DNA of 64,000 bases from Aphrocallistes beatrix (Eukaryota; Porifera; Hexactinellida; Sceptrulophora; Aphrocallistidae), in assembly GCA_963281255.1 (NCBI GenBank), contig OY725499.1, positions 744,001-808,000 of the forward strand, in the 5' to 3' direction. Positions 488 through 52,837 of the stretch are shown in pieces. Position numbers and translations under genes: made by a program. How positions within the stretch are numbered: the stretch's first letter is position 1; each line of letters opens with the position of its first letter. The notes under the pieces were generated by a model that saw only the letters and a program-made list of their open reading frames with translations, was not told the DNA's origin and searched no databases.

Positions 488-489
<2 letters not shown>

Positions 490-548
<59 letters not shown>
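490..548. repeat. (TA)n microsatellite, left half
   Basis: Uninterrupted TA dinucleotides. This is the left half of the Helitron A internal TA tract, which was split at a TA target by the Tc1-like MITE that follows. Open frames made only of alternating Ile-Tyr across it are artefacts. Confidence 0.95.
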
Positions 549-1090: not shown

Positions 1091-1105
1091 CACAATAATC
1101 GAGTT

Positions 1106-6889: not shown

Positions 6890-7944
6890 CAAGCCGCTTC
6901 GCTTGCTTGCGCTGCGCGGCTTGCGGACACTGCGTGTCCGAAGAGTCTCCCTGCGGGCGCCTGGAGTCACTCAATCAAACATATTTTGGGATTTTTTTCC
7001 TTTATATAAATATTTCAAACAAAGGTCAACGAAAAATTTCTCATATGGATCCGAAAATATAATATTGGAAATCTACAGCACTAAAAACCCCATGTCAACC
7101 GTTGGAAGCTATTATCTAGCCTATTTTTGTAATTTGTTTACTTTATGTATCTATTGTAAACAAAAGTAAACAAATAATTTATCATATCGATCTGAAAATA
7201 TGATATTCGAAATCTACACCCCTAAAAACCCCTTGTCAACCGTTGGAAGCTAGTTTCTAGTCTATTTTTGTAATTTGTTTACTTTATGTATCTATTGTAA
7301 ACAAAAGTAAACAAATAATTTATCATATCGATCTGAAAATATGATATTCGAAATCTACACCCCTAAAAATCCCTTGTCAACCGTTGGAAGCTAGTTTCTA
7401 GTCTATTTTTGTAATTTGTTTACTTTATGTATCTATTGTAAACAAAAGTAAACAAAAAATTTATCATATCGATCTGAAAATATGATATTCGAAATCTACA
7501 CCCCTAAAAACCCCATGTCAACTGTTGGAAGCTAGTTTCTAGCATAATTTTCAAAATTCGTCAAATCGTGTGAAAATATGTATATAAAGGTGTGAAAATA
7601 TAGAAATAACCTTTTTAACTGCTATACACTATAATATATTATTGAGACATTCATAAAACTTATTGCTTTGAAGTATTAATTACAATTACAGCCTACAATA
7701 TTGTCGTATAATGATTTCTATTGTGAGAGTGAATCCGTACATAGTATTGTATAGAAAAGGTGTGAAAAATTGTTTTCCATTTTTTTTGCAGAGGTGTGAA
7801 AATTTCGCTTAGATCTTAGAACTTAATCGTAGATTCATCATTTGAAACCTACATGCCAATTTTCGTATCTCTACGATTTGCCAATTCTTCAATCAATTCG
7901 AACAAACAAACAAACAAAAAATCCTAGCATTTTAATATATAAGA
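6890..7944 (-). mobile_element. Non-autonomous Helitron-like element, family B
   Basis: On the minus strand it runs from A|TCTTATATATTAAAATGC at 7944 to CTTG|T at 6890. There is no target duplication, and insertion is between A and T. The last 90 bases are GC-rich with nested hairpins (GGACAC/GTGTCC; AAGCCGC/GCGGCTT) and match the 3' end of family A. Inside are about three and a half tandem units of roughly 125 bp (about 7085-7560), each carrying a TTTGTTTACTTT / AAAGTAAACAAA inverted repeat. No Rep/helicase ORF is present. Confidence 0.8.
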
Positions 7945-8497
7945 TATTGACATCGGTTAACCGGTTTAACTGCCTGGAAGAAACCCAAATAACTGAGCTC
8001 TAAGATCAGTAACCAAGGGCTGCCACCAGAATAAAAAATCCATGAAAATAGGATACCCGGACGAAAATTGGCAGCAAGAAGGTCCCCCAACTCGGACCAA
8101 ATTTGGCGTGACAGTCACACCGTCTTTGACTGTATTGATAAAACAGTAATTTACTCGCCTTTAATGATACAATAAAGAATCAGAGAAAACTATATCAATG
8201 AAACGGAGAAATGTACTTGAAATAATTCGGAAACGCAATATATACTGATTGCATTATAGCAAACTCGTTGACTGTAGAACCATACCATTGTAGTAATGAG
8301 TATAGTTTCAATTAATCAGATTGTTGTGAAGCAGTAATAAGATACTCCAGTGTTGGACAGAAAATTAGTTATACTTTAAACCTGCCAAGGCATAAAGCTT
8401 GTGCTTGGCTCTTTGGAATCAGGAGTCCGATGCTCAGGTTAAGATATTTTCAACCGTATTTATTATTTATTAACAAGTGTAATCCTTTTAAAGTGTA
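7945..8497. other. Intergenic, nothing recognised
   Basis: AT-rich. A short GGTTAACCGGTTTAAC palindrome near 7955 recalls the GGTTAACC-rich insert at about 59950-60300. No coding or RNA gene signal was seen. Confidence 0.6.
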
Positions 8498-9263
8498 CAA
8501 GAGCGCTTCGCTTGCTTGCGCTGGGCGGCTGGCGGACACTTTGTGTCCGCCAGAGGCGCCCTTCGGACGCCTGGGGTCACATTGATTAATTATAAGGGAA
8601 ATAACTTAAAACATAAAATCACAAAATTTATCAATTTTTAAAATTTTTGATGAGTAATGATGACGTCATAACAAAGTGATGAGTCATCATTTTATGATGA
8701 TAGTTGCATTATATGTGAGACATGTTAGTGTACAGATTTTATTAAAATTTCAGCCTTCTATCTCCTATAATGGCTGAGTTATGCTCGAATATTGCTTAAC
8801 TTTTTAAAATGTGACAATGACGTCATAATTCCATGATGAGTCCACATTTTGCTCTGAGCTCAGAATTTAGTGGAGCCATGGCCAAAAGACTCCCACATGC
8901 CAAAAATCAGCTTTCTATGAGCGGCAGTTTCTTCAATCAATTCGTTACAGAGATATATGTATATACTACTACATACACTACCTGGCCAAAAGTATTGGAA
9001 CACATTCTAGTGTGTGCCACCATATGCCATAAGTGGCACAGGTGGCAGGGAAACGGGCCCATTGAAGGAAATCGACAAAAGTTTAGTGGAAGAGGAGGTC
9101 GGAGGGATAGTTTCTATTGATATCACAATGTTTACACTTGTTTAATATTGTATTCAATGTGTTGTGCCACTTTGGCAAAAGTGGCACACATTAGAATGTG
9201 TTCCAATACTTTTGGCCAGCTAGTGTACACACACATTAATCGAGTTTTACTTAATAGTAAGGA
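8498..9263 (-). mobile_element. Helitron-like element, family A, copy 2
   Basis: The minus-strand 5' end is TCCTTACTATTAAG (small internal insertion relative to other copies) at 9263. The 3' CTTG is at 8501-8498 followed by T. The body aligns with copy 1 (1-1118), including the CAATTCGTTACAGAGATA junction. A Tc1-like MITE replaces most of the internal TA tract (8976-9225). Confidence 0.8.
8976..9225. mobile_element. Tc1-like MITE, 250 bp
   Basis: CACTACCTGGCCAAAAGTAT at the left pairs with ATACTTTTGGCCAGCTAGTG at the right, flanked by TA. The CTGGCCAAAAGTAT terminus is characteristic of Tc1-family transposons. The arms continue as GTGTGCCAC...GTGGCACAC. No transposase. Confidence 0.85.
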
Positions 9264-10619
9264 AATTCATACTATTTCCTATGCAAATATGTGATGTTTG
9301 TTTCTGTTAGCATTCCGGTATTATAATCAGGCTAACTTCACTGATCGGAAATATCCCAAAACCTTTTATCTCCTCTCCTCTCACCTCTCCTTACTTCCAT
9401 GCCTCTATGTCTCCATTCCCCAATCACACAACAATTCTTAATATCTACAATTTTCGATGCCGGCAAGTATATACCGTCTTTCACTGAATAACTGCTCCGG
9501 TGCTTATTATTTTCGTGCTCAGAAACCCCGGAGCTCAAAAATTTGAAGTACTGTTTCGATTGAAAAGCAATCGCATTTGGAAGAGATAATAAACGATTTC
9601 CAATCTCATTACTAATCACTAGGAGTATTCATAAATGCACTAACCATAATATGGTTTACTTACCTTAAAATGTTCGCATCTTAATTAACCCCAGGCGCTT
9701 ATTCAGGGAAAGACGGCTTCTAGAATATGAAATATATTATGGCATCAATGCGCGACAAAATCACACTTTTGGGTTGGGATAACCACCTAGCCACCATCTT
9801 AGTAATCTGTTTAGAAAGATCGTATCTAAGCATTTTACATTTACTTGAATGTGGCGGTTTAATGGGCTACCAGGCTATGCATTTATTAAGAGTATATTTT
9901 TAGTTGCATCGCACCAAACCACCAATAGTTTAGTACAGTAGAACCTTAGAATGGTATACTTTACTTTATACTTCTCCATTTCGTTAAGAAAAATAAAAAT
10001 TAATTATTTTTTTAGTATTTAAGGTTGCCACGCCAACAGATCATTTTTACCTAAAAACATCGGTGCCTGTGCGTAGCTAGTACTTCGATATCTTATTACG
10101 AGTTATAATCTAATTATTTGTCTGATCAGTGATATGATACTTTTAACAACTAAGCAGGATTTCTTTAAGATATTGATTACACATTCTCAATATTCGTAGT
10201 ATGACTTTTAATAACATTTTGATTATCTGTAAATTATCATTGTTTAGCATTATATTGGAGATGTATTGATAACAAATTGTTTCTGGTTATTCCATTATAA
10301 TACTGTGACTTGTGTGTGTATATTTATTTTTCCTAAATTGTTCACCTGGGATCACTCTGATCATAGAGAATTGGAGAGAAAAATTAGCCTACCGATCTAA
10401 TTGTCTCTTGTTAGCTAGTCTATCTAGTAAATTGAAGCAAGAGGTCAAGTTTATCCTTTCATTTCGTACTATGGATACATATATGCTTTCAAAATGTTTA
10501 TATAGGAAAGCCCTCAGTACACAATTCCCATTAGAATAGGTGGACTAAAAATGTCAGTCCGACAGTCCGTAAATTCTTTATGCATACTTATAACGTGCTA
10601 TATATGTCAAAACTTCTAC
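9264..10619. other. Intergenic, no convincing gene
   Basis: A 93-codon minus-strand open frame (9338-9619) shows no recognisable motif, and a purine-rich tract near 9360-9400 inflates it, so I do not call it. A pogo-like terminus CAGTAGAACC occurs near 9936. Otherwise AT-rich unique-looking sequence. Confidence 0.5.
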
Positions 10620-11365
10620 ATTTTTTGGAAAAATTTGCATTTTAAGCTCGAAGCAATATCTCAACAGCTAATATAGAGTATTATGTTGAATCTGTTTTTG
10701 CATTAGATGCCAGTATATTTAGAATTGTTAAGATTAAATTAAACTAAAGAAGACAGAGTTTTAAGATTTAAAAAATATATTATGGGTCTAAATGAAGTTT
10801 GAAGTTTTCTACCAAAAACCCCAAAGATTCCCTTGGAGGCTTAAATTGATCTAAAATGTCAGATTGGTTCGATAACTTAAAAGTGGATTTTTTTTGCAAA
10901 ATTCCGATCTCAAATCCAACTAACTAACCAACGTAATTCAAAGACTATTGACTGTTTTCCTATTCTTCAAGTGCCTTATTTAGATGCATCCAAGGGTTCG
11001 TAAGAGGCAAAATAATCATGACTTATGTTTTAGACAATACATTGTCGCTCCCAGCATGGCAATGAAACTGATTAAAAAATAGAATTCTAATCAAGTGTTT
11101 GACTAATAAAGCTACCGCGCATGCTCTATGGACCTAATGTGCATGTGCTAAGTACTTTTTATTATTTGAAATATGGTAGAAATCGGACAGTTTGATTACT
11201 TAATGATTGCGTGTACAAAACATTACTCAAAATGGGTATCATGTTTTGAATGCGGCATTGTGGCAATAATACTGAAGAAAAAGTTTAAGATTATCTTATA
11301 TATTCTCACTGTGTCTAGAAGCACTAGAGAAGTTGAAATCATTAGGATAATTCCAGCGTATCAAT
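10620..11365 (+). repeat. Segmentally duplicated flank of the methyltransferase locus
   Basis: About 10870-11350 aligns almost base for base with 57150-57610, which directly precedes a decayed methyltransferase fragment. It is therefore upstream DNA of a duplicated locus. The left part (10620-10770) also recurs at 13505-13655, just before the intact methyltransferase. The frame at 11173-11367 is not conserved in the other copy and is not called a gene. Confidence 0.75.
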
Positions 11366-11465
11366 AATATATCAAAATGTGAAGAATGGTCTTTTTATGC
11401 AAATACAATGCTTATCCAGCCGTATAACTGTAGGCCATAGCTGTAATAATAACTAAAACAAAGTA

Positions 11466-11701
11466 TCATAAAGAAAGATACCCCAGTTTGCCTCCATCTT
11501 TATCATGCAGTTTCATCCAGACATCCCACAAATGCGCATCGATGCTAAGTGAGTATAGTCTAGCACAGCGGAACATTTATTTGAGCAATAACTGAGCCAG
11601 ACTATACTCACTTGGTATTGTGGTACATTTTAATGGGATGTCTGAACTCTGGATGGGGACTGCATGATAAAGATTGAGACAAACTGGGGTATCTTTATGA
11701 T
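11466..11701. mobile_element. Foldback (palindromic) element
   Basis: AAAGATACCCCAGTTTG at the left pairs with CAAACTGGGGTATCTTT at the right. Complementarity continues inward (TTTATCATGCAGT; ACATCCCA; GTGAGTATAGTCT/AGACTATACTCAC). The whole 236 bp folds into one imperfect hairpin. No target duplication is obvious, so the superfamily is unassigned. Confidence 0.75.
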
Positions 11702-12339
11702 ATTTTTTATACATGATGCAATCATTGATGAGGCATTATAATCTGATCATGAAAATATTTATATAGAAAAGTGTTGCGATTCCCAATAAAGATTTCGTTT
11801 CAAGTAATCTAATCTCTATTTCATCTCACTTCCAAGTTAATCAACTTTTGACACCTACTCGAGGTGTGAAAAATTATGAAATGTTGAGGAAACGTTTTGG
11901 GCAACATAGAAAAACATTATTGTGAAAATTCGACATTATTTTGTCGATTACTCATCGTCACTTGATCACACATATATATTCAATTATATAAGATGTCAAG
12001 ATAGTATATGATGAATATTTATCCGTCGAAAGTTTCCTTCCATCATTTGTCATTATAAAATTATTAAGTTTTAAACATCTGCATAATTTTATCTTGATAT
12101 ACATATGAATAATCATATGAATCTTGCTCAGTAATCAACGTGTAATATAATTCAGTTCTCTATTAATAATTACAAATATAATTCAATTCTTATTCCCTAT
12201 GTACTCCTATCAATGTTAATATTTAATCATTGTTAATGAGATCTGTCCCCAGTTGAACGAAACTTAATTGAGCAAACTCATTTGAGCACCTAACTGGGCG
12301 AAACTTAATTGGTAGAAACCTAATTGATCCAAGTATTAA

Positions 12340-12765
12340 ATATATTGATAGCCAGGATTAGACTTGAATTCTCTACTGCGTGAGGTGCGCTTGCATTTGT
12401 TAATGAGATACCTTGTGATAATGAAAGAATTTGAATCTTATTGTAGGCAGAGCAAAAGTATACAAGAGTTGTATTTTGAGATGAATTTGAATAGAACCTC
12501 ATCTCTTCATTTTCATCTCATACAACCTAACACAAGTACATCTATTGGAGACTATCCAGATCTCAAGTGAGTTGAATTCGTATAAATTATATTGCTCGTT
12601 AAGTAATACTAGCAGAGTTATGTTTCGTGGATTGCGGACACTTTGTGTCCACCTGAACCATCCCTTGGATTTTTCTCCACTTTGAATTTTGATTTTTTTC
12701 GAGAATGTGCAAAATTATTCTAAATTTTATAACTCCAAAATGATTTGATTAGGATATTCATAAGG
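12340..12765. repeat. Dispersed repeat (family C) with Helitron-like hairpin
   Basis: Related in inverted orientation to 48990-49380. Shared blocks include CATACAACCTAACACAAGT, TTCATCTC and the hairpin GGACACTTTGTGTCC that is also part of the Helitron A/B 3' terminus. It may be a third, degraded Helitron-like family. Confidence 0.55.
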
Positions 12766-13150
12766 CATTATGATCGGAGGATCGATGATCCTTTTTTTCT
12801 GAATGATCGGATGGAAGATCGCGATCTTTTTCTTGTCCGATCATTTTTGGAGATTTATGCTGTCTTCTCTCCTTGCTATCATTAACTTATTATATTTTTA
12901 CAATTTAAGTCTTCTTATAGTACTCTACTATATAGTATTACGTATACTGATAGCTGAGCATGGAAGGCATTTCGAATTTTAGTTCATACAAAAATGATGT
13001 GTCAAGGAACGAAAGCAATAAAAAATGATCGGAAAAATGATCGAAATCGGGATCGCGATCCTATTTGAAAATTTGATCTCGATCAGAATTGCCATCATAA
13101 TATCGACTAGGATCAGGATCTTATTTTTCACTATCAACTAATGCCCTAGA
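12766..13150. repeat. GATC-rich non-autonomous element
   Basis: Dense clusters of GATCGG/CCGATC, GATCGCGATC and related words at both ends (12770-12850 and 13020-13130) in opposite orientations, separated by plain AT-rich DNA. This is the layout of a MITE with GATC-rich terminal repeats. The ends are not sharp enough to give a target duplication. Confidence 0.5.
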
Positions 13151-13860
13151 TGTTCATACACGCTGGAGATCGATTGGCAGTTTAAGACATCGACGCTCTC
13201 TCAAAATATTTGAATTAATAAATGAGGTGGAATCGCGAAATTCAATATTTCGCTCTTTAAATATTGTTTTCCATAAAAATCTGCAAAAGCTTTATATTCA
13301 GTAAGTTAATTTGAGGTCTAAACATTTTTTGTGAAATCAACCACTTTATTGTAATTTCTAGAACAAAGTCTGATTGATATTGACATTAGAGAATTTAAAT
13401 ATTTGGGATCGACATAATCGAAAATCCTTGATTTAGCACTTTCTATGAATCGCTAGACGCTTATATGTTATTCAGGCTCTTGATTTTTCCCACAAGCAAA
13501 ATTTATGTCCCACAAATTTGCATTTTAGCTCGAAACAATATCTCGACAGCTAATATAGGGTATTTCACTATGTTGAATCCGTTTTCCCATTAGATGAATA
13601 GAAACTTTTGAATTGTTAAGATTAAATTACGCTAAACAGGACAGAGTTTTAAGATTAAAATTCCTTGGCTACGATATGGCAATACCAGTGGAAGAATGTA
13701 TTCGTGTTATTGACAATTTTGTACAAAAATGCTCTTCCGAATACTGTACCTTATTCGTATATAATAAATTAAAAAGTTATTTTTTAGATATTCCAGTTTT
13801 CCAATCGAATTATTGTGATATATTTTTAAAAAGTGACTTTTGGGCGACCCTGTATATATA

Positions 13861-13888
13861 TCTTATATATTAAAATGCTAGGATTTAA
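13861..13888 (+). mobile_element. Solitary Helitron B 5' terminus
   Basis: A|TCTTATATATTAAAATGC followed by TAGGATTT is the exact 5' end of family B, but the body stops after about 28 bases. It is a truncated copy or the footprint of a larger element lost by deletion. Confidence 0.6.
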
Positions 13889-14141
13889 AAATTATTTGTT
13901 ACATGTAGAAGCGAGAATTCAACTACTAATAGACCGTATTCGGTATTCTTTAATGTAGATAACAAATTTTACACTTAGAAAGCTCTAAAATTAATATTTC
14001 CCGAGCAAGTATTACGATAATCATATTTCATTTCGAGTCATTTACGAGAGCTGCACCATCGATCTGTCGATCGACATTTCTGTAAATAAAATGTTCTATA
14101 TTATTCTACCTTTAGGCTCCACATCGAATTTCCACTTTATC

Positions 14142-14903
14142 ATGGCTTCTTCTACTCCGCTCAATGAAAGTTCAGCACAAGAATATAACAAACACTGTGT
14201 TAGCCTAATGGATCAAACACCAGTTGACTTAAGTATTCTAAAACTTCTCACACTTCCTGAATGTAAGAAGATACTCGATATTGGTTGTGGAACTGGTAAC
14301 TATACTTTCATGCTAGCAGAGTGGGCAGGATCAAAATGTCAGGTTGTTGGCGTTGATCCAGACAAAGAACGAATCAAAATAGCCAAAGAGAGTAACACCA
14401 ACAGTAACGTGCTTTTTGAAGTAGGAGATGGACAGTGTTTCCCAGAAGATCAATATGATTTAGTTTTTTCTCACTATGTATTACATTTAATTGAAGACAA
14501 ACAAGATGTTTTTGAAAGAGTCAGCAAAAATATACGCGTTGGTGGACAATTCGTGATTATCGTTGAACAAAATCTTTCTGAACTTAAAGAAGAGATGACC
14601 CAGATGATGGGGATAGAAAAATGCAAGGCAATAAAAAACAAGCGATTCTACTGCACTCCGGAAAAATACTTCGAGTTGGCTTGTGCAAACGGTTTTATTT
14701 TGACCTTTAACAAAGAACTAGATAATGGCTATAATTTACCAAACATCGACAGTGCATTTTCGAGTTGGTATGCAAATACTTTTGGTGTGTTTAATCCGTC
14801 AGAAATAAGTCTTACCTCTTTGGAAGAGTTCAGACAAAAATATGCACAATCACCAATGTATATGGAATTACCTACTGCTCAATTCATTTTCACCAAAAAA
14901 TAA
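14142..14903 (+). CDS. Class I SAM-dependent methyltransferase (Methyltransf_11/25 type)
   Basis: An intact single-exon ORF of 253 residues from the ATG at 14142. An in-frame ATG at 14091 exists, but its extra 17 residues lie across a likely splice acceptor (CTACCTTTAG), so I prefer the downstream start. Motif I ILDIGCGTGNYT (about residues 44-55), the acidic end of beta-2 GVDPDKERI, motif II EDQYDLVFSHYVLHL and motif III IRVGGQFVIIVEQN give a complete Rossmann SAM-binding core. The C-terminal third, which sets the substrate, is not recognisable. It would be a cytosolic small-molecule methyltransferase; there is no signal peptide or membrane segment. A decayed copy of the same locus lies at 57.1-58.0 kb, followed as here by the FAD oxidase, which points to a linked pair. 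Confidence 0.88.
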   Translation: MASSTPLNESSAQEYNKHCVSLMDQTPVDLSILKLLTLPECKKILDIGCGTGNYTFMLAEWAGSKCQVVGVDPDKERIKIAKESNTNSNVLFEVGDGQCFPEDQYDLVFSHYVLHLIEDKQDVFERVSKNIRVGGQFVIIVEQNLSELKEEMTQMMGIEKCKAIKNKRFYCTPEKYFELACANGFILTFNKELDNGYNLPNIDSAFSSWYANTFGVFNPSEISLTSLEEFRQKYAQSPMYMELPTAQFIFTKK

Positions 14904-17011
14904 AATAAACTTCTAAAATCTCAGGCTTGATTTGTTTTGTATTGAGAGTGTACAAGTATTTCTTAGGATTCAAGTATTTAGAGTTTGCATTAAGGGTCTA
15001 GCATTCTAATCAGGAAAATTGGATTTTGTGTGTGTATACATATAAATAGTTTTATTCATCTAGGCTTATTCCTGCAATACTCAGAATAGATTTGTGATAT
15101 CATATATTTTGTATATTTGTTGATCTCTATCATGACAGTGTGAATTATTTAAATGATTGTTGATTGTTATAACACCTCAAATTTGTGAATTGTCTCTTGA
15201 AACTCTGAATTCATTGGGTAATCTACCAACGTAAAGATAATATCGGGAAAATCACACTACTTTAATTACACATCTAGACAGGGTGTCAAACCTATCGCCG
15301 TGTAATGTCAGTATGTCTGCTTCCAAGTTCCTGGAAATTATACTGGACCAAATTGCACCAAATTTGGACCATGTGCGAGTATTTCTTTTATGGATGAGAT
15401 TTGAACTTATGTACAACTTTTGTAAATTTTCACACCTTTTTTGACATGAATTTAACTTGATTTAAAATTTTTACTATAAAGCAAATATAGTACATGTGTC
15501 TGCAACTAGTATTTGAGACCAAACTCAATTTACAATTTTGTCTTCACTTGGACTGACAGGCAAAAGCAGCAAGATTGTAGCTGTTGAAAATTATGCTTAT
15601 GAATATTGAATGAACTGAGGTTTATAAAAATGTTAAATTCCTCCTATAGGCAATAATATTATCTACGTATGGGATCACTTGAAGCGATACGTGAGTGGTA
15701 TAAATAATACAAAGTATATATAAATGAGTATGCATCCAAATTCTCATAAAACACTTTAATTATAATCGATAATATTTCATAAATGTGGATATGTCCTGTC
15801 CAACTAAACTTGAGGATAAGTTCATCTTTACTAGTCACAGTTTGTTATATAATTATTTATAGTTTTAGTTATACGTTGTATATTATAGCACTATGTTACA
15901 ATTGATATGCTTGAACACCATACCCATTCAATTTTTTTCATTTTGACACAGATCGATCCATCTAAAGCTATACATTTTAGTAGATATTTGGATTTCTAAA
16001 ATATTCAGGCAAAATAGTGACAGATTCCTGCTGTGCTCTATATTTTTGGAATTCCTCACTTTGTGAGAAATATTATAGATACAAAAATAATAATTATGGA
16101 ACTTTAAATTTAGATTTGAACCTATTCACCATTCGATTTTGATAAAATTGATATAATCATTATTTGTATATTGGAAAGAGGAGTTATATGTCTTTATAAA
16201 TATGTGGCGATGGTCATTTGGGGGGCTATCGCTAGAATTCGTACTAGGAGTGTCGACAATAATCTTAGGCCCTCGCAGTGAAAAATAAGACTTGTTTCAG
16301 CTCCAAAAAGACCATGAAACAATGACATACAGATTAAGAAATATTGCCCACCAGCATTTTTCTTAATCATTATACCATTGTTTGATAATAATAAAGACTG
16401 ATAATTTGATCTATAATGCCTACTAGCATTTAACTAATGTTTGAAGCCTCAAAAATAGCATCAAATTATTCTGAAATGCGAATAGCTATATCGACAGTAT
16501 ACCACAGTCAATAGTATTAAATTACTGTACCTGAAATACTACGTATAATGTGGTACTGCTACAATAATAACAATAATTGCAATATATGCGGTAGCAAATT
16601 ATTGATGCAGGCGGTGGAGCTTTAAATTAACAGTGGCCTTGTGACCATACTACAATAAATCTTATATATAGGGTGGGTTTTACATTTTGTACCCAGTGCA
16701 ATTGGGTATTTTTTCCTTGGCTTCCATAATCTTAGTTATTATAATGGCTAGAGATTGTAGATATAATATTTGGACCCATATCCCCGATTTTAGCTACGTG
16801 CCGCAACACATTTTTTTCCTCACAAAGTCTGTCCTGCAAATTGTAGTTCAAGGTTTTAGATTGGATAAACTCTCACAAAATCGTTCCAAAATCTCTATTC
16901 ATCATAATAACTAAGAGTATGGGAGTCGAGGAAAAAATATACCCAATGATGCTGAGTGCACAATTTAAAAAAAATATAAAATGTTATTTAATCATGATGA
17001 TTTAACATATA
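14904..17011. other. Intergenic, no gene seen
   Basis: The 15400-15640 part is the 3' flank of the methyltransferase that recurs at 57820-58030. At about 16670-16950 there is a mariner-like piece (AGGGTGGG terminus and the word ATCTTAGTTATTAT shared with the elements at 32692 and 47118). Otherwise AT-rich. Confidence 0.6.
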
Positions 17012-18085
17012 CAAGCGCGCTTCGCTTACTTGCGCTGCGCGGCTTGCGGACACTGCGTGTCCGAAGATTCGCCGTATGCGCGCGTGGAGTTACTCAATCT
17101 AACCTAATTTGGGAATTTTTTACTTTATATAAATATTGTGAACAAAATTTAACGAATAATTTATCATATGGATCCGAAAATATAGTATTCGAAATCTACA
17201 CCCTTGAAAACCCCGTGTCAACCGTTGAAAGCAAGTTTCTGACATATTTTTGAGATTTGTTTACTTTATGTATCTATTGTAAACAAAAGTAAACAAATTA
17301 ATTTTCGAACTTACTCGAAAATATGATATTCGAAATCTACACCCTTGAAAATCCCATGTCAAACGTTGAAAGCAAGTTTCTACCATATTTGGAACCATAT
17401 TGAGATTTGTTTACTTTATGTATATAATGTAAACAAAAGTAAATAAGAAATTTATCATATAGACCTGAAAATATGATATTCGAAATCTACACCCCTGAAA
17501 ACCCCATGGCAACCGTTTAAAGCAAGTTTCTAGCCTATTTTGAGATTTGTTTACTTTATGTATCTATTGTAAACAAAAGTAAACAAATAATTTATCATAT
17601 ACATCTGAAAATATGATATTCGAAATCTACACTCCTGAAAACTCCATGTCAACCGTTGGAAGCTAGTCTCTAGCAATATTTTCAAAATTAATCAAATGGT
17701 GTGAAAATATGTATATAAAGGTGTGAAAATATATAGATAATTTTTTTGATTATCATACACTATAATACATTTAAGCTATCAAACATTAGTTGTGGCTTTG
17801 AAGTATTAATAACAATGACGATATATTGTAGTGTTGTACTTGTACAATGATGTCTATTGTGATAGTGTAGGTCATTTATTTAGTATAGAAAAGGTGTGAA
17901 AAATTGTTTTCCATTTTTTTTGCAGAGATGTGAAAATTTCGCTTAGATCTTAGAACTTAATCGTAGTCATATCATTTGACACCTACATGCCAATTTTCAC
18001 ATCTCTATGAATTCCCAATTCTTCAATCAATTCGGACAAACACATAAATAAAAAAACAAAAAAATCCTAGCATTTTAATATAAGA
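17012..18085 (-). mobile_element. Helitron-like element, family B, tandem copy 1
   Basis: 3' CTTG at 17015-17012 with flanking T, then the hairpin block, about four internal units of roughly 120 bp (17110-17660), and the 5' TCTTATATT end at 18085. The next element begins at the very next base, so this copy's 5' end was itself the target of a second insertion. Confidence 0.8.
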
Positions 18086-19020
18086 CAAGCACGCTTCGCT
18101 TGCTTGCGCTGCGCGGCTTGCGGACACTGCGTGTCCGCAGAGTCGCCCTGCGGGCGCCTGGAGTCACTCAATCTAACATATTTTGTAATTTGTTTACTTT
18201 ATATATCTATTGTAAACAAAAGTAAACATTGATCATCAAATATACTCGAAAATATGATATTCGAAATCTACACCCCTGAAAACCCCATGACAACCGTTGA
18301 AAGCAAGTTTCTAGCATATTTTTGAGATTTGTTTACTTTATGTATCTAATGTAAACAAAAGTAAACAAATAATTTATCATATAAATCTGAAAATATGATA
18401 TTCGAAATCCACACCCCTGAAAACCCCATGTCAACCGTTGAAAGCAAGTTTCTAGCATATTTTTGAGATTTGTTTACTTTATGTATCTATTGTAAACAAA
18501 AGTAAACGAATAATTTATCATATAGATCTGAAAATATGATATTCGAAATCTACACCCCTGAAAACCCCATGTCAACCGTTGGAAGCTAGTCTCTAGCAAT
18601 ATTTTCAAAATTCATCAAATGGTGTGAAAATATGTATATACGTAAAGGTGTGAAAATATGCACATAATCTTTTTTATTGCCATACATTATAATACATTTA
18701 AGCTATCAAACTTAAGTTGTGGCTTTGAAGTATTAATAACAATGACGATCTATTGTAGTGTCGTACAATGGTTTCTATTGTGATAGTGTAGTCATTTATT
18801 TTGTATAGAAAAGGTGCGAAAAATTGTTTCCCATTTTTTTTGCAGAGATGTTAAAATTTCGCTTAGATCTTAGAACTTAATCGTAGTCATATCATTTGAC
18901 ACCTACATGCCAATTTTCACACCTCTATGACTTCCCAATTCTTCAATCAATTCGGACAAACACATTAAAAAAACACATTAAAAAAAATCCTAGCATTTTA
19001 ATATATAAGATACAGTAAAA
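18086..19020 (-). mobile_element. Helitron-like element, family B, tandem copy 2
   Basis: CTTG occupies 18089-18086 and the 5' end TCTTATATATTAAAATGC is at 19020, next to a T on the plus strand. It holds about three internal units (18180-18580). It sits head to tail against the preceding copy with no intervening base. Confidence 0.82.
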
Positions 19021-19154
19021 GCCCCTCACAGATGCAATGAATGTGCCTCCATTTCTAGGGTGACGGTACAATACTGTGTTTGTACTGTTATCCAGGAATG
19101 CATAATTACACTCCCATTTAATCTGTGAATGGAGTTTTTTACTTTTGTCTTAAA

Positions 19155-22100
19155 ATGGGTTGTGGGTCAAGTTCCCAACAAGTCGTTTCTAAACCTCAGC
19201 ACAGCATCCCCCAGCAAAGTACGTCACATAATCTCGCAACTAGCAACTCCAACCCTCAGCAAATGCAAACTTCTAACTTTTCGACAAATGAACCAGACAA
19301 GCAGACATCTATCATTGAGGATAGCACATCTTCACAAGTGACTAAAGGTATATATATTCCCTATATTATTATCATCAAAGCATAGAGATACTATATTTGA
19401 TATAAAATTCGGGGGCTACACATTCAAATGTCTCAGTCTTGTAAATTTTTCGTCCCAAATACGTATTCGCTAGGCCGTAGGCAGTAGGTGTGAAGTGGTC
19501 AGGTTGAAACCAGTCTGAAAGTACAAATTGGCCTTTTTAGGTTGAATTAGTCAATGGTGATCCGGTTGAAACCGGACCAATCGTACCGGTGGCTACGGTT
19601 CTGCATTGTTAAATATGACATCATAAACTTTGCATCATTAATCACCACAATATATAATAATGATGGTTAAAAGGACAACCAATGGTAGAGTTGCACAGGT
19701 TTATATATACAGTGGAGTCTCCTAATAATGGACATATTGGGGGCATAGAACCGGCGCCACTGGTCCGGTTTTAACCGGACCACTTTTCAAAAATGGTCCA
19801 GGTTGGCCATGATAAACCGTACAACTTTTCAAAAGTGGTCCGGTTGGTAAAGTAAAATCCGGACCACTTCTAAAACCGTGGCGCCGGCGCTGCCGGGCAT
19901 AGTTTTTGTCCGTTGTAAAGAGATGTCTGCTCCTCGGAGAATGTGCTTACTATTACTTCCGTAATATGGTGAATTCATTCCGTTCCACGAGGTTTGTCTG
20001 TAGTAGAGGGATTGTCTGCTTTTCGGAGTTGTCCGTTTTAGGAGACTCTAATGTACTACATACCTCGGATATGAAGAATTGATTTGAAGTCTTGAAGTTG
20101 AGTGCAGTAGAACTTTAGCTGGCGAACACTTTGTGTCCGCCCAATGCGCATTACGAAAAATAAATGAATCATCCAAGTTGTTAATTTTTCTTCGTTGTTT
20201 AGTTGAATTATCTACTTCTGCATGGTTGGCAATTCATACTGATAACATACCGCAGATGAAAGGGATGAACAAAAAAAAAGCGATGAATTTCCTTGAAAAG
20301 TACAGTATCAGCATTGTAGATGTGAAGATATCAATTCAAGACATTGATTTGAAACTTAAGCATAACGCTTTTAAAAAAATGAAAGAGAAGAAATTGACCG
20401 AAGACTATCTTGTTATTCCGACAAAACCTTCAACGTTTTTGAACTGGCCAGGCAATGTGAAGCTCGATTCTACTTACGTATGCTTCCCAAAGACTAAGGG
20501 CGATCTGATTGATATTTTAAAGCACGATGAATTTACGAGTATTGGATTTCAAGGATCCACTCATTCTTGGCCTAATTTTTTCGGGAAATCCAATTCTGCA
20601 TCAATCAATTTCTTGTTCTTCAATGCATTTGGAACTGGTCAAGAGAGAGCCAAATTAGTTGATAGGGAAAATGGAATTGTAGTTGTGTCTGCTGGATGTT
20701 CTATTCTAGAAAAACATTGTACGTTTGGATTAGATAAAGATCCTGTACTCCTACCTTCTTGCGTGATATATACAGATGGACATTACGTGGGTACTACCTC
20801 AACTGGCTGTCATGTAAGTTCTAGATTACTAAAATACATTGTTTTATTAGTTAGTAATTAGACTAAGTTCATGATTGATTAACCAAAAGCATTGTGTTCT
20901 AATACCAAACATGTTCAGGCACACTCACATCCAGTCTGTGCACAATGGCGTCGATTTTCGAATTATGTTGCGGGGGGGGGAGGTCGAAGTTACTTTAAAG
21001 GTAAATTTGTCTCTCCCTAGTTGGAATTATTGGGGGTAATGAAAATACGGGATGAACTGGATGTAGACCCAAATCTATGGGACGAAAAGGAAAAAATGAG
21101 TACAGTACACCCTCGCTAATCCGAATAGCTCTGTTCGAATGATCGAAAAAATCGTTCGGATTAGTGAATTTGTTCCGATTAGTGAAATAACACTAATTCA
21201 ATATGGCATTAATTATAATAAATTTGTATTGTTATATTATATTAAGTATATTATTTGGCTATGACTGCATATTTAACGAGGTTTCTCAATCTTATTGATA
21301 GATTTAAGTTTATAACCATTTATTCAAAGTCAGAGGCGAATAATAATATATTTTGCGTGTTCGGATTTTTAAAATGAAATGTTCGGACTATCGAGGGTGT
21401 ACTGTACTAGAAAACGCGAATTCATTGAAATTTTCGTGGTTTCTACTTTATTGACTTTAATTAATTAAGTTAAAAATTTTAAAATCGATATTTAAACATA
21501 TTGATAAAATGGATATATTTCTGAAAGATTGTGTAATTAAAACGTAGAGAAACTCTATATATTAGCAATCAAATTCTAGGACACGCATTCTAATTGCTCA
21601 ATATCATCTGACTAATTATCCTGCATATTTTAGGGATGTAGCTTCGAATATGGAAGCTTAAGTGATCAAATAGAGAAGATAACATTTTACGATGCTGATG
21701 GTAATGAGCACATCTTAGAAAAAGATAAAGATCTCGATAAACTTCGCACTGCTGCTATTGGTTTGGGTTCTTATGGAATTATTACTGAGTTGCGCTTCAA
21801 AATGGTGCCAGATGTATTAGTCGTAACAGAAAGACATTACTGGACTCTTGAACAGATGAAACACAATTTGGAAAATCATCCCAGTGATTGGCTATCTTTC
21901 GAACATTACTGGTGGCCATTCGGAAGTGTCTCAGTAGACGATGCATTCCAATGTATAGTAACTGGAAAGTTACAAAATTATGACTATCAACAAGACAAGG
22001 TATTTTGCCAAATAGTGAGGAAATATCGTGATCCTAATGGCCCCATAAAGTATCCCTATCACGATCCTACAACAAATTCTTACATTTATGCCGATAAACC

Positions 22101-22851
22101 TTATACAGATGACCCCAAATATTGGTTTCGCAATCAGTTACCCTACTACAGACAAGAAATTTTGCTCTGGATACGAAAGGAATTATTGAAATCAGCCAAA
22201 GAGATTGATATTGATGGCAGATTTGTGCCATTTATGCAAGTTATTGTCCTTGAGATATTAAATCAAATGCAGTTTATAGATAACCTTCGTTTTCCATTAC
22301 ATACTTCAACATATTTCAATGCTGTCCATTATTTACCATTAGTTTCAGCACTTCCAATCAGAATAAACGATATAGAACTTTGCTTTCAAGCTTCTCCAAC
22401 TCTCAAACCCGGAGAGAATGAAACTTTTTCTAATTACTTCGAAGCGCTAAATAAACTTGGACTAATGATACAAGATGAAGCTTATAATGGTCGATTTCCT
22501 GTCAGTATGTGTGTTGAATCTAGGATTTGTGCACAAAGTCCTTGTCCTTTAGCTGCTAACTATTCTACTGAAAAAAAGATGTTTGTACATCTGGAAATTT
22601 TGTCTCTGAGTTATTCTCCAACATGGGAAGCCTTTGGCAATTGCTTTTTCCAAATGTTGAAATCAATTGATCCTAATGTTAAGCCTTCATTGGGGAAACA
22701 ATGGACATTTATTGATGGTATCTATGAACATCTCCAAACTGTGTGCAACGAAGGTTTGGTTGAATTGCAAAAATTACAAAAAGAATATGATCCAAAAGAG
22801 CGATTCATGTTCAAAGATGTTGCCAAACTATTTGAGAACTTGAATAATTAG
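19155..22851 (+). CDS. FAD-linked oxidase related to L-gulonolactone oxidase, three exons
   Basis: Exons 19155-19347, 20203-20813 and 21634-22851 join at GT-AG introns with matching phases (1, then 0) into 673 codons. The N-terminus MGCGSS has Gly2 for myristoylation and Cys3 for palmitoylation, so the enzyme is probably tethered to a membrane through a Ser/Gln-rich linker. Exon 2 carries the FAD-binding PCMH part: NWPGNV, then GFQGSTHSW, whose His185 lies where the GULO/ALO family attaches FAD, then VSAGCSI. The exon 2/3 join gives TGCHGCSFEYGSLSDQ, equivalent to the family's TGTHNTGI segment. The end (EYDPKERFMF) resembles the lactone-oxidase tail. Family members oxidise sugar lactones and related alcohols; the substrate here is unknown. 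The roughly 135-residue extension before the FAD domain is unusual. Start choice rests on the in-frame splice and the MGCGSS signature. Confidence 0.85.
19710..20053. mobile_element. pogo-like MITE in intron 1 of the oxidase, itself interrupted
   Basis: CAGTGGAGTCTCCTAATAAT at the left is paired with GTCCGTTTTAGGAGACTC...ATG at the right, and TA duplications flank both ends. Inside, after GGGCATAG, a second element (19749-19894) is inserted. Words like TTGTCCGTTGTAAAGAGATG resume after it. Confidence 0.8.
19749..19894. mobile_element. hAT-like MITE nested in a pogo-like MITE
   Basis: AACCGGCGCCACTGGTCCGG pairs with CCGTGGCGCCGGCGCTGCC. The 8-bp target duplication is GGGCATAG at 19741-19748 and 19895-19902. 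The interior repeats GGTCCGGTT / AACCGGACC. The same family occurs at 37040-37376. Confidence 0.85.
21103..21404. mobile_element. pogo/Tigger-like MITE in intron 2 of the oxidase
   Basis: CAGTACACCCTCGCTAATCC pairs with GGACTATCGAGGGTGTACTG, with TA on both sides, 302 bp. The left end repeats GTTCGGATTAGTGAA words. A truncated relative is at about 4517-4600. Confidence 0.85.
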
Positions 22852-24323
22852 ATTGCTAGCTAATTACCTCAACTTCGACTTTGAACTATTAGAATGTAGT
22901 GAGTTGTTTCATTAGGAAGCATCCATACCTCTTTACTGTATTTCTCTGCTCTAATATCTCCCTTTATATACTTAGATATTTTCTCGTGTTTACTATTAGT
23001 TTTTCTTATAAATGCATAGTATAGGATTGTGTAATGATAATTATCTACTGTTAGTTTGATAGAATTTTTATCTAAATTCATGCTTCGAGGGAACTTGAAG
23101 GGATCAAATATATAAAATATTTAAGCTGTCTATGTACTTGTATAGGAGGGATTTATGTAGAATTTCTGATTTATAGTGAATTCAGAGACTATATTTTCAT
23201 CAGAAAATATATAGAATTTTGATCAGAAAACCAATGTAGAACATTGATTAATTAGTATTGAAATTCCACATTTCTGATCAAAATTCTACATATTTTCTGA
23301 TAAAATTATACAGTCTCAAATTGTGTATTATATGTATTAGCATGAGACATTATCGTTGTAGTAAGACTCTAAATGAAGCTCCAGGTCCACAAATCTGCAT
23401 TAAATGCTGGATAAATAATTACATTAGTTTTATAATTATTTTTCTCATTAGTGCAGCAAATATCGCATAGGTTAAACCATAACCTACTATAATAAGGCCT
23501 CAGAGTAACTTGCGGATTTGGCACTAGGGATGCAGTAAAAGATGGTTGAAGAAATACATGAGCTGCCTTAAATCATTAACAAAGCACAATAGAGCTTAGG
23601 AATGTATTACCAGCATATATAAATATGGTGTCAAAGCACCCATATCCGTTGTTAAAATTTAGATTAGTCATCAAATGATTGCGCAACAGGCTATATTTGG
23701 ATCAAATTTAGTGATTTTCAGAGGTCGTTTAAGGGCACTTCTAAGTGTTTTTATTATAAGGTTGTAACCGAATAGTTCAATATTCAGCTATAGACCAAAT
23801 ACTATTTGGCACATAGTTGATCTTAGGTTGGGAACCGAATATCAGTATTCGTATTCGGTTAGGGAAATATTCATGAATGCTGATATTCGGTTCAATCGGT
23901 TTCAACCTTGAAAAGGCTCGTACAGCTTCACTCATAGTCCAATCTTTTGACAAGTAACACACATAGACATAGCCAGGAATATTTGTTTGGGACATATAAA
24001 CCAGCTGAGGGATGCTTTAAGCCCCCCAGTGGGGTCCAGGGGCAAAGCCCCTGGAAACTAACAACAATTTGTCCCACAATTTGGACAGATTCATCTAATT
24101 TTGAGGTTCTAGAAATACAAATTACCTCCGATGACACTCCCCCCTCAAAAATTATTTTATAACTTACTAAATAAATATTGAGACTTCATCCAGCCAGGGG
24201 GAGCAGTTGCCCCTCCTGACCCCCCTCCCTACGCCCTTGGTAACGCATTTAACCAGAACTCATATCATTAGCGACCTAACACCAGATATCAGAGATTCAG
24301 GAATGTATAATAAAAGAAAAAAT

Positions 24324-24437
24324 TGCTTAGAAACCCAATTTTCCTTAAAAGGTCTTCTAAATGCTTAGAAACCCAATTTTCCTTAAAAGGTCTTCTAAAT
24401 GCTTAGAAACCCAATTTTCCTTAAAATGTCTTCGAAG
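24324..24437. repeat. 38-bp direct repeat, three copies
   Basis: The unit starting TGCTTAGAAACCCAATTTTC recurs at 24324, 24362 and 24400, with only one or two changes in the last copy. Confidence 0.9.
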
Positions 24438-24822
24438 CAATTTTTTGTAATCAATCTAGTAGTAAACCATTCTTATGTTACTAATAGTACAAAAGCATAC
24501 ATAGAATAAGTATCAAAATCTCCTTACTTCATTAAAATTATCCTTAATTTTTATGAAGAAAAAAAATTTAATCAATGCAATATATCAGAGTTAAAGCACT
24601 TTTCCTGTGATTATTTATATTGAAAGCGACATAGTCTATATATAGTAGAAGATTAGATAATATTACAGGCATAATCATTATCCAAGCAACTTGAACTACT
24701 TGTTATTCCAAGTAAAAATTACTTGATTACTTGCGTCATCAGGAAGAAAGAGGTAACACTGAAGAATAATGAAAAGGAAAATTTCCATTTCAAATCATTT
24801 CTTGAATTCACATCAAAACTAG

Positions 24823-24830
24823 TATAAATA
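24823..24830 (+). promoter_or_regulatory. Candidate TATA box of the 7TM gene
   Basis: TATAAATA lies 34 bases before the ATG at 24864. In the duplicated unit the homology begins just downstream of this site, at about 30308, so the second copy never received it. Confidence 0.5.
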
Positions 24831-24863
24831 GAATAGGATAGATTTCGAATTAACAATAACGAC

Positions 24864-26015
24864 ATGACGAATTCAGATTTATACAGTCAAATTTATGAAG
24901 TTTGTTCATTTGCCCTCATCCCCTATCTATGCATTGTATTATTCACAATCCCGTACTTTGTATACCAAAAATTCCTCATTCTTTGTCGGATCAAAAATAT
25001 ACCAGCATCCACCATATTCTCAACTGACTTGAGCAAAGTCAAGAAAAATCTGCAACTTTCATCATTGATCCATACTTTCATCTTGATTCTCTACAGCTTC
25101 GAGGCTATAATATGTCTATCAAACACTAGTACGACCATTTATAATGTATTCAATCCAGATATTAGAATGTATTCTGTTGTGGTTGTCACATATGCAAATT
25201 CAAACGATTCCTGCACTCTTGAAAAGACCACTAACATTGGTATATTTCTCTCTATCAGTGATAACCTAATATTTCTTTTACCGATTCCGCTAAACTTATT
25301 TATAATCATATTAAGGAGAGCATATCTAAACGTCCCATACAAGAGATGGATCATGGCATACTCCGGTTACTTCCTATTCAGATTAGTTTACTTCATATCT
25401 TCAAATTGCTTCATCTTTACGGGGTATTTCATCTATTCAATGCAACTACCTTTTATATTTTTCGATATTTACATATACGTAAATGCCAGTAAGAAGTTTT
25501 ATCTTCTGCTTAAAGGAATAGGAGAAGAAGCAAAGTGGCATTCCACACCTCAAATGTACCAAAATAAACGGAGAACAGCATTATATTTTTATATCAAACG
25601 AGTCATCGTCTTGTTCACCTCCGTTATCTTCATAACAACCGTTTTATTAAATTCCATTACGGAATTCGCTACAATGATAAAGACCAGCCACTGTATGCTG
25701 CGATACTTAGTACCGAATACACAGATCAATTTCACAGTCTCGAATAGTCTAACGCAAATCTTGAACAGAACGTCATACTACAGTCAGATCGTAAACCTAA
25801 TTTGCAGCTTGTTTATTTGCGCCATGGTATTTCTATTAAACCTAGGAATACTCATATGGATTATTAAGAAACTGATTATAAGAAGAAAAGTGTACATCCA
25901 TGTCAACGACTGGATAACCCGTCCTCTCATGGAAAGGTACAGAGCTGATGTGGGACGAAACCCTGATAGGAGTCCTCCATTTATACAAGCTTTTAGATCA
26001 CACTTAATCTATTAA
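24864..26015 (+). CDS. Orphan multi-pass (probably 7TM) membrane protein, copy A
   Basis: Single exon, 383 residues, ATG at 24864. Long hydrophobic segments are visible at about residues 14-36, 64-86, 124-150, 163-215 (two or three passes), 245-267 and 308-338, so about seven helices. Loops hold possible N-glycosylation sites (NDS, NFT, NRT). The C-terminal tail is short and basic/hydrophilic (KKLIIRRKVYIHVNDW, then VGRNPDRSPPF). I cannot match it to a named GPCR class: there is no DRY or NPxxY motif. A lineage-specific chemoreceptor-like or orphan receptor is a guess from topology alone. It converges on the sulfotransferase at 27786-29219, and the pair was duplicated together to 30.3-36.1 kb. 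Confidence 0.8.
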   Translation: MTNSDLYSQIYEVCSFALIPYLCIVLFTIPYFVYQKFLILCRIKNIPASTIFSTDLSKVKKNLQLSSLIHTFILILYSFEAIICLSNTSTTIYNVFNPDIRMYSVVVVTYANSNDSCTLEKTTNIGIFLSISDNLIFLLPIPLNLFIIILRRAYLNVPYKRWIMAYSGYFLFRLVYFISSNCFIFTGYFIYSMQLPFIFFDIYIYVNASKKFYLLLKGIGEEAKWHSTPQMYQNKRRTALYFYIKRVIVLFTSVIFITTVLLNSITEFATMIKTSHCMLRYLVPNTQINFTVSNSLTQILNRTSYYSQIVNLICSLFICAMVFLLNLGILIWIIKKLIIRRKVYIHVNDWITRPLMERYRADVGRNPDRSPPFIQAFRSHLIY

Positions 26016-26816
26016 CACCTTTAACATGATGCTTATATATATCTTTGTTATTATATATTGTATAAATAGTACAGTCAATTTTTAAATACGCTGGTTTATC
26101 CACAGATGAATTTAAATAGTATTGTTCTATTGCATAATGACATTGCAAAGTAATTGACTCCTCAATGACCCGATTTTTCATCTTGAAATTGCCAAAAGTC
26201 TCATGTTTGTAAATTTTTTCTCCAAATATATATAGGATTGCCTATTGATAATCATCTATCAGTAGATGATTAAAACAAAAAAAACCATGAATTTGAATAA
26301 AGTTTTATCAAACTGACAGTAAAATCTACTGTTAGTTTGATGGCTCTTTTATCCAAATTCGTGTTCTGAGGCAAATTTGGAGAGATCAAATAGAAATTTT
26401 AAATTTTCAAATAAAACGATTTAAATTACTTATTTTCACAGAATGTCACATCAATTTGGCATAGTTGATCAATGCAATTTTATGATAAGTTCTACAAGTA
26501 TCATTGACATGCCGCCTAACTGAATCTCTTTTGCCTAACTTGAATCTTTAACCCTACTTGGACTTGGGGTACAAAGTATAAATATAAAAATCCCACTTTC
26601 ATTTCCACTTTCAATTAACTTTCACTTTCACTTCAACATTCCGAGTCCAAGTAGGGTTAAACGCTAATTTGACGTGGGGCCAAAGGTATAAATAGAAATG
26701 ACCCCACTTTCATTTTCAATTTCAGTTCACTTTCAATTCAACATTCCAAGGCAAACTAGGGATAGCTATTTACCAAACTTGAATCTCCCTTGCCAGCTTG
26801 AATCTTTCTTTGCTTA
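26016..26816. other. Spacer between 7TM A and sulfotransferase A
   Basis: 26016-26530 aligns with 31375-31845 of the duplicated unit. Then come a few copies of a GCCTAACTTGAATCTCT-type minisatellite interrupted by two small CTTTCA-rich elements (26552-26656 and about 26661-26757), ending at the Helitron insertion site. Confidence 0.7.
26552..26656. mobile_element. piggyBac-like micro-MITE, 105 bp
   Basis: CCCTACTTGGACTTGG and CCGAGTCCAAGTAGGG are inverted termini, and TTAA flanks both ends exactly (26548-26551, 26657-26660). The interior is alternating CTTTCA pyrimidine runs and TATAAATA. A second, related element with GGGGCCAAAGGTATAAATAG follows to about 26757. Confidence 0.8.
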
Positions 26817-27313
26817 TCCTTACTATTAAAACTCGATTAATGTGTATATATATATATCTCTGTAACGAATTGATTGAAGAAACTGCCAGTCACAAAAAGC
26901 TGATTTTTGGCATGTGGGAGTCTTTTGGCTATGGCTCCAGTAAGTTCTGAGCTCAGACCAAAATGTCGACTCATCATGGAATTATGACGTCATTGTCACA
27001 TTATTAAAAGTTAAGCAATACAGTTATTCGAGCATAACTCAGCCATTATAGGAGATACAAGGCTGAAATTTTAATAGAATCTGTATACTAACATACCTCA
27101 CATATGATGCAACTATCATCAAAAAATGCTGACTCATCACTTTGTTATGACGTGATCATTACGAGTGATATCGATTTTAATACTAAGATGGACATATTTA
27201 GAGATGTTATCTCCCTTATACTTAACCAATGTGACCCCAGGCGACCGATGGGAGCCTACGGCGGAAACGAAGTGTCCGCCAGCCGCGCAGCGCAAGCAAG
27301 CGAAGCGCGCTTG
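26817..27313 (+). mobile_element. Helitron-like element, family A, complete copy
   Basis: A|TCCTTACTATTAAAACTCG at 26817 to GCGCTTG|T at 27313, 497 bp, no target duplication. The 3' block contains GGCGACC/GGAGCC arms, a GGACAC-like hairpin and GCGCAAGCAAGCGAAGCGC before CTTG. The paralogous unit at about 32455-32475 keeps the uninterrupted TTTGCTTA-AAACTTG site, which marks both ends of the insertion precisely. Confidence 0.88.
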
Positions 27314-29219: not shown

Positions 29220-29268
29220 TGTAGAATCGCACAAACAAAACGAAATTGAAATTGTACATCAAAAACGC

Positions 29269-32455: not shown

Positions 32456-32691
32456 CTTAAAACTTGACAAATTATTTAGCATTAAACAAACATTTCATTT
32501 CGGGATTCAGTATTTCGCTCTATAAATATATTTGATATATCATTGAAATTAGTTTTTGGTATTGACACCAATTTAGTGTTATAATAGCTTCGATTTTATT
32601 GATCAATCACGATTCGACATAACCATATTCAGATATTTAAATTTAGAAGCATTCTCAAGCTTTGAAATTTGATTCGCTGAGAAAATAAATA

Positions 32692-52788: not shown

Positions 52789-52837
<49 letters not shown>

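Follow-up and report, generated by a model that had tools for sequence, protein, structure and literature searches.

Among the closest described systems is Helraiser, of the bat Helitron1 (Helibat) type, whose 3' hairpin is a terminator that can be bypassed. Replacement of its stem kept about 90% of the activity; a change of the loop, together with the pair at its base, acted like deletion of the hairpin; and natural copies with new 3' ends were attributed to insertion beside Helitrons that are 5'-truncated or abutting, to deletion of the tip and to bypass (PMC4778049). Here, we analysed a window of 64,000 nucleotides of the hexactinellid sponge Aphrocallistes beatrix (assembly GCA_963281255.1, contig OY725499.1, positions 744,001 to 808,000 of the forward strand; C13:744001-808000 in our numbering), in which two families of short Helitrons, A and B, finish in one common 3' terminator made of several hairpins and a final CTTG, and this terminator was followed through the genome (100.5 Mb, 28 contigs). 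The sponge elements resemble Helraiser, as far as the parts of its account used here go, in the Rep-helicase (RepHel) protein, similar over most of its length, the 5' TC, the insertion between A and T, the 3' hairpin terminator and the occurrence of copies with new 3' ends. They differ from it in ending with CTTG instead of CTAG, in carrying several hairpins instead of one 19-bp palindrome placed 11 nt from the end, and in that the replacement is the terminator of another family, acquired in layers (PMC4778049).

Other described elements share single features with this group. HELPO2 of Pleurotus ostreatus is a Helitron with a 3' CTTG and an AT target, but it is fungal, it has a subterminal palindromic hairpin, and the sections of its account available to us present no common multi-hairpin block (PMC4289320). 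For FoHeli of Fusarium oxysporum, composites were proposed to arise via self-insertion with loss of the inner end; copies with repeated 5' ends occur, comparable to the tip repeats of one sponge locus given below, and the 5' hairpins of FoHeli1 and FoHeli2 have a GAA loop, as has the terminator tip here. In related Chaetomium Helitrons the 3' end is better conserved than the 5' end. FoHeli is however Helitron2-like, with inverted repeats, ends in ATTTT or CTCCTGT and has other targets, and the TTTT target of Helitron2 differs from the A-T target of the sponge elements (PMC5148889). The oyster Helentron Cg_HINE consists, like family B with its array of 140-141 bp units, of short elements in which end modules flank an internal tandem array that resembles a satellite; unlike the sponge families, it is of the Helentron type, with a TT target and subterminal inverted repeats, and its authors could assign no autonomous relative to it (PMC7492417). 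The portions consulted of two further accounts give the Helitron1 and Helitron2 definitions and general hallmarks, and no common 3' end of such kind (PMC3627910, PMC5714489). Within a partial coverage of the literature, we found no description of this multi-hairpin module or of a similar common 3' end beyond the cited work. As bypass, new 3' ends, composites and CTTG ends are on record (PMC4778049, PMC5148889, PMC4289320), the present case is a variant of a known sort, namely a CTTG-ending Helraiser-like group with a multi-hairpin terminator and layered replacement.

A preliminary description of the window had proposed a 3' block of about 80-90 bp, ending in CTTG and followed by T, at seven 3' ends. 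The block was recovered at all seven coordinates (6890, 8498, 17012 and 18086 on the minus strand; 27313, 48835 and 53313 on the plus strand), each time with CTTG and then T. Read 5' to 3', the ends are roughly ...CCAGGCGCC-loop-GGCGCCT...GGACAC-loop-GTGTCC...GCGCAGCGCAAGCAAGCGAAGCGCGCTTG, then T. The copy at 53313 has lost the GCAAGCAAGCGAA stretch of the tip, and the start of the window truncates an eighth copy. The elements and related features of the window are the following.

1..504, minus strand: family A short Helitron, truncated at the start of the window
1078-1118: 5' tip fragment (A 1-41)
6890..7944, minus strand: family B short Helitron, complete, 1055 bp, from TCTTATATATTAAAATGC after A to CGGCTTG before T; four tandem repeats of 141 bp lie inside it at 6984-7551
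6890..6970, minus strand: B-type 3' terminator module of the preceding element, hairpins and CTTG (folded without the last base)
8498..8966, minus strand: family A short Helitron with a complete 3' end, its initial ~27 bp (5' tip) unrecognised (A 28-497 against 8966-8498, 85%)
12626-12650: hairpin-2-like piece inside other sequence, no CTTG terminus
17012..18085, minus strand: family B element with the shortened 5' tip TCTTATATTAAAA directly after the CTTG of 18086-19010 (B 6-1054 against 18082-17013, 84%)
18086..19010, minus strand: complete family B element of 925 bp that adjoins 17012-18085 head-to-tail, zero bases between
20118-20139: hairpin-2-like piece inside other sequence, no CTTG terminus
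26817..27313, plus strand: family A short Helitron, complete, 497 bp, from TCCTTACTATTAAAACTCG after A to GCGCGCTTG before T
32409..32519, plus strand: empty-site relative of the 26817-27313 insertion, joined flanks 91% over 111 bp, precise
48308..48835, plus strand: family A short Helitron (A 1-497, 75%)
49098-49118: hairpin-2-like piece inside other sequence, no CTTG terminus
50554..51415, plus strand: family B fragment (B 29-853) without 3' end
52821..53313, plus strand: family A short Helitron, similarity from A position 29, deletion in the tip, end still GCGCTTG before T

The B elements of the window carry inner arrays of three to four 140-141-bp tandem repeats (6984-7551, 17108-17682 and 18172-18605). 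A third family, C, which had been named at 12340 and 49100 as a carrier of one hairpin of the terminus, was dropped as a member: no module was found at 12340, and within the window, the scope of this search, only the listed hairpin-2-like pieces without a terminus were seen. The pieces at 12626-12650 and 49098-49118 have flanking sequence in common and may belong to a separate family.

The exact 30-mer GCGCAGCGCAAGCAAGCGAAGCGCGCTTGT occurs 2,412 times (1176 + 1236) in the genome, about once per 42 kb, and the reversed pattern does not occur; this count is a minimum, as the most frequent tip among B-type modules is GCGTGCTTG (29 modules, against 10 B-type modules with GCGCGCTTG). Using one copy of the B-type module as query, 2,362 candidates were obtained genome-wide, 40 of which were scored. 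A scan of 113 module places, which located hairpins 1 and 3 inconsistently and from which only the count of ends was kept, gave CTTG at 93 places, in line with the earlier proposal of a shared multi-hairpin terminus with CTTG rather than CTRR; the other 20 are broken modules, point changes (GTTG, TTTG) and shifted projections, one of them being GCGCTAG before T (C12_90, L090). This last one, the second module of L090 on contig C12, is a CTRR-type end, the other intact ends of its lineage being CTTG. The sharing stops at CTTG and the target T, with no extension of the block beyond them: T follows 38 of 38 modules other than the seed of their locus, and 27 of 27 once those with the searched 29-mer are also dropped.

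We found 106 matches to Helitron_like_N in the genome, three of them within open frames of 1947-1970 aa, and fetched 12.5 kb around each of four Helitron Rep-domain loci (E44, E45, E46 and E47). One protein per lineage was scanned, and the L044 and L047 proteins each contain Helitron_like_N, PIF1 and Pif1_2B, together with an OTU domain that is weak in L044. No endonuclease family, the mark of a Helentron, was detected at E<=5 in four frames of L044, L045 and L047 (the E45 frame is interrupted and was scanned in pieces). The L044 product aligns with Helraiser (7lcc) at 1036 bits over 175-1646 (1,472 residues), with the HAH motif and both tyrosines of KYL(F/Y)KY, which we take to be the catalytic pair, in register. 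Residues 149-219 of this product, in the N-terminal part of the RepHel protein, match STPR repeats (PF21107, E 7.7e-11), and this region also matches weakly to fibroin-modulator-binding protein chains.

These genes form two lineages whose coding DNA is 69% alike, and they lie in four elements of 9.5-9.9 kb (9505-9949 bp) that all begin after A and finish before T; with the same 3' block at their ends, they are candidates for the autonomous Rep-helicase element that the preliminary description had proposed to look for. E45, E46 and E47 (lineage 1) are 97-98% alike from TCTTATAT after A to CACTTG before T, a span also read as TCTTATATATTAAAACTC after A to GCGCACTTG before T; because they are alike up to their termini and have different flanks, these ends are real. 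E44, of lineage 2, begins with TCCTTACTATTAAAACTCG after A and finishes with GCGCGCTTG before T. L044 and the copy on contig C3 are 99% alike at the 3' end, and their flanks differ at both ends.

Flanks, target base and 5'/3' types were determined on a sample of 33 complete short elements, which leans to family B owing to the B-type query. An A precedes the 5' tip in 28 of these elements; in the other 5 it is G, and all five lie directly after the CTTG of another copy. T follows CTTG in all 33, 11 of which come from loci found by a pattern demanding this T. Direct repeats in the flanks are absent in 22 elements, of 2 bp in five and of 4-10 bp in six, all six within TA repeats, so that the target duplications that would have spoken against Helitrons are seen nowhere else. 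Joined flanks were used to search for empty sites, tandem copies and TA-repeat matches not being counted. In addition to the precise window relative at 32409..32519, the empty site of L041 was found in L053 (93% over 120) and that of L027 in L087 (92% over 120); the joined flanks of 6890-7944 match window 59965-60086 at 75% over 122, a weak empty-site relative. The 5' TC is present, the tip search having demanded it and the RepHel element ends having been read by alignment. Head-to-tail copies are joined as CTTG-TC, which bears only indirectly on a circular intermediate of rolling-circle transposition; insertion between the A and T of a 5' end would give the same. The elements are Helitrons, as had been proposed: the same ends enclose RepHel genes, insertion is between A and T, no target duplication is seen except within TA repeats, the empty sites are precise, and there is a 3' subterminal hairpin.

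Base pairing in the terminator was measured by alignment of 74 distinct modules ending in CTTG, in place of pattern-based loop counts that missed many hairpins, and the control was obtained by sliding the partner by 1-2 columns. Hairpin 2 is paired in 87% of the cells, against 27-37% in the slid control. Folding as single-strand DNA gave z values of -1.7 to -4.3 for four modules of the window and of -2.1 to -3.8 for six other modules. The tip loop is GAA in 73 of the 74 modules, and d(GCGAAGC) is a sequence of special stability; we found no paper joining 'Helitron' and 'GCGAAGC'. The loops of hairpin 2 are AAA (33), GCA (18), GAA (10), ACA (5) and others (8), counts by which a strict GNA loop rule was rejected as stated; the ANA loops could be the product of CpG decay of C-GNA-G. 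The middle loop letter is the same in hairpins 1 and 2 of most modules (AA in 37 and CC in 19 of 74), an agreement that we treat as a lead and not as a test because the module copies are related. A tentative extension, to which we give clearly less than even weight, is that the 3' terminator is a separable row of three-base-loop hairpins whose loop letters are a code for RepHel, stops being rescued between families and broken ones being left in order as a layered record; the two RepHel lineages would read the same code, and an element without a stop could then take that of another family.

Families A and B had been described as having different 5' ends and bodies. This held for the bodies, whose alignment shows no excess over shuffles (20 of 500 reach its score), and failed for the 5' ends: over the first ~155 bp, A and B align with a score of 34.0 against a maximum of 23.5 in the shuffles, and both heads contain CTTA..TATTAAAA, CGAATTGATTGAAGAA and TTGGCATGT. 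The head of lineage 1 scores 33.5 with A (shuffle maximum 20.5) and 109 with B (shuffle maximum 26.5), the controls being 500 base shuffles that do not preserve dinucleotides. From these alignments we read the A and B heads as homologous and their interiors as unrelated; two conserved ends with differing interiors are the ordinary layout of non-autonomous Helitrons and their drivers.

Head and tail are of the same type in all 33 complete short elements (B in 23, A in 10). Among 30 loci taken in order along contig C1, which lean to A through the 30-mer search pattern and were typed by our own reading, 25 have A-type tails, including L067 with its B-like head, and four are B-like (L056, L057, L058 and L066); L069, in which a different body carries the tip only (the final ~42 bp of the module), was not classed. 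Free 5'/3' exchange among the short elements was rejected (0/33), and L067, with an apparent B head and A tail, which the tip pattern of the typing script had missed, stays the single candidate. At L065 on C1, around 761-982 (+), a complete A element is immediately preceded by about seven consecutive matches to the first 27-42 bases of the A 5' tip.

In the RepHel elements the 3' end has been replaced. E45, E46 and E47 have a B-like head and, at the 3' end, a decayed B-type module, about 40 bp matching the A subterminal part and an intact A-type terminal module. A short relative with the lineage 1 head, adjoining E46, has a B-type module at its end, which suggests that the B type is probably ancestral in this lineage. 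In lineage 2, five copies end at module 1 (C2_92, C12_93, C18_94, C17_95 and C8_96); C18_94 has a deletion in the tip of this module, and C17_95 and C8_96 show A-head sequence a few dozen bases beyond it. In C12_90, C15_89 and C2_91, a break at about GCGAA cuts module 1 short, and A sequence and module 2 come next; in C12_90 this second module ends in GCGCTAG before T. In C15_89 and C2_91, module 2 is itself broken at GCGA and followed by further A sequence; C2_91 reaches an intact module 3, and C15_89 diverges before any module 3. E44 and the C3 copy have module 1 joined to the second junction of C15_89 and C2_91 and finish at an intact last module. The sequence of C7_97 departs from the others ahead of the modules, and no end is seen in it. 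The first junction occurs at 13 places in the genome (<=3 mismatches), two of which look like ordinary ends, and the second at four. A tree on the 337 columns before module 1 separates E44, C3, C15, C2_91 and C2_92 from the rest with a support of 0.993.

The head of lineage 2 is a composite as well, in which an A element of ~510 bp with a tipless module is followed by a leader and the RepHel gene. Seven loci of lineage 2 were aligned: the A tip is present in three (E44, C3 and C1_85), the C12_83 head has no recognisable tip and one is masked at the tip. The tip with CTTG of the internal module is missing or altered in all six copies covering it, C1_85 stopping before. The stretch from module to leader gave 41 matches (40 of 1,039 candidates scored), 18 of which extend from the module to position 203 or further (of 261), and 17 of these 18 have, by comparison of coordinates, a Rep-domain match on the same strand <=3 kb downstream. 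As the identities are 73-92% (self apart), the joining of A head and RepHel body is an old event. The internal tipless module upstream of the RepHel gene at L044:1650-1700 has a perfect 12-bp hairpin 1 (z -4.6), which could have a role in the leader.

The reading that we consider very probable is that A and B are short non-autonomous Helitrons with the two RepHel lineages as their likely drivers, that the hairpins and CTTG form the terminator, and that loss of its tip would lead to read-through to the next one. A RepHel protein would nick the 5' end between A and TC, peel off and copy one strand 5' to 3' (strand displacement) and halt at successive short DNA hairpins and then CTTG; the ends would be joined, and the resulting circle would be inserted between A and T without target duplication. 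Head (~155 bp) and terminator (~85 bp) are conserved across the families, the interior being free to vary. Once the terminator tip is lost, copying would continue until the following terminator is reached, in many cases one belonging to an A element, and this extended copy would become a new element. Of all this, the sequences show the termini, the target, the empty sites, the RepHel genes, the conserved pairing of hairpin 2 and the broken modules with intact ones behind them at which copies at different sites now end; strand displacement, the circle, the assignment of lineages to families and the effect of tip loss are inferred.

Several points weigh against this reading. The 3' end is CTTG and not the CTRR of a canonical Helitron1, and there is more than one hairpin in place of a single short one. 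Hairpin 1 is paired in 68% of the cells only, against 26-55% in the slid control (55% for the +2 slide), a lower value explained in part by G-A pairs, which stand in for G-C at two positions in 27-28 of the 74 modules, and the terminator tip folds in two different ways. The matching of driver to family depends on 5' similarity, C15 and C17 have no A head in the stretch fetched, and the evidence is DNA sequence, no transposition, transcript or circle having been observed. C12_90, which the tree places apart from the clade of the other carriers, has the first junction too, so this junction was exchanged or arose more than once. Moreover, the junctions hold almost no foreign DNA between the broken and the new module; as distant read-through would leave host DNA there, read-through alone is insufficient, and adjacency to a 5'-truncated copy, microhomology or recombination, three processes that are not separable here, must also be involved.

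Considering that ordinary recombination or gene conversion after insertion could by itself build tandem modules and composites, we keep this explanation as a minority possibility that deserves attention: L044 and C3 join module 1 to the junction after module 2 of C15 and C2_91, as unequal recombination would, and C12_90 has the same first junction from outside the clade. It leaves unexplained, nevertheless, why the inner modules are tipless and the outermost intact (E44, C3, C2_91 and E45-47), and the new CTTG ends are in use at different sites, in E45-47 and in L044 with C3. Unlikely in our estimation is the proposal that the internal module of lineage 2 has a function within the leader, such as that of a regulatory hairpin, the A elements being products of early termination. 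The perfect 12-bp stem of the first hairpin in L044 and the 18 of 41 matches running from module into leader would suit it, but copying could not end there now, the tip with CTTG being missing or altered in 6/6 copies, and C3 and C17 no longer have hairpin 1, which in C2_84 and C15 is altered.

The idea of the preliminary description, that one recombinase-recognised 3' terminus repeatedly captures unrelated 5' partners, appears quite improbable. The last ~85 bp are indeed more alike between A and B than the bodies, lineage 1 combines a B-like head with an A-type 3' end, L067 has an apparent B head with an A tail, and the lineage 2 copies carry an A head on a RepHel body. The A and B heads are however homologous, what was replaced in lineage 1 and in late lineage 2 is the 3' end, and free capture is unsupported because the types match in 33 of 33 short elements, albeit in a B-weighted sample typed with a tip pattern that missed L067; what survives of the idea is the end replacement in the RepHel elements and the old A-headed composite. 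Finally, a miniature inverted-repeat transposable element (MITE) or foldback family with a GC-rich common end would also give short, abundant elements with hairpin-bearing ends, and we give it practically no credence in view of the RepHel genes between the same ends, the A-T target, the lack of duplication outside TA repeats and the precise empty sites.

Open frames of the window include NACHT, sulfotransferase and methyltransferase genes, which gives it an animal-like look. A long frame with a NACHT domain lies at 41268-44648 (-), and two same-strand frames of the sulfotransferase family lie at 27786-29234 and 33661-35952 (-), the second being overlapped by other long open frames. A match to the integrase core (rve), slightly under the Pfam cut-off, covers 55768-56358 (-).

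Whether a rolling-circle transposon copies itself alone or takes adjacent DNA along depends on how it recognises its stop. In this genome one terminator is present in at least 2,400 copies, two coding lineages have it as their end, and successive stages of its loss and replacement are seen; these offer natural variants for telling which part of the terminator, the hairpins, the loops or CTTG, makes the stop. These elements suggest that the driver, the head and the stop of a Helitron can have separate histories.

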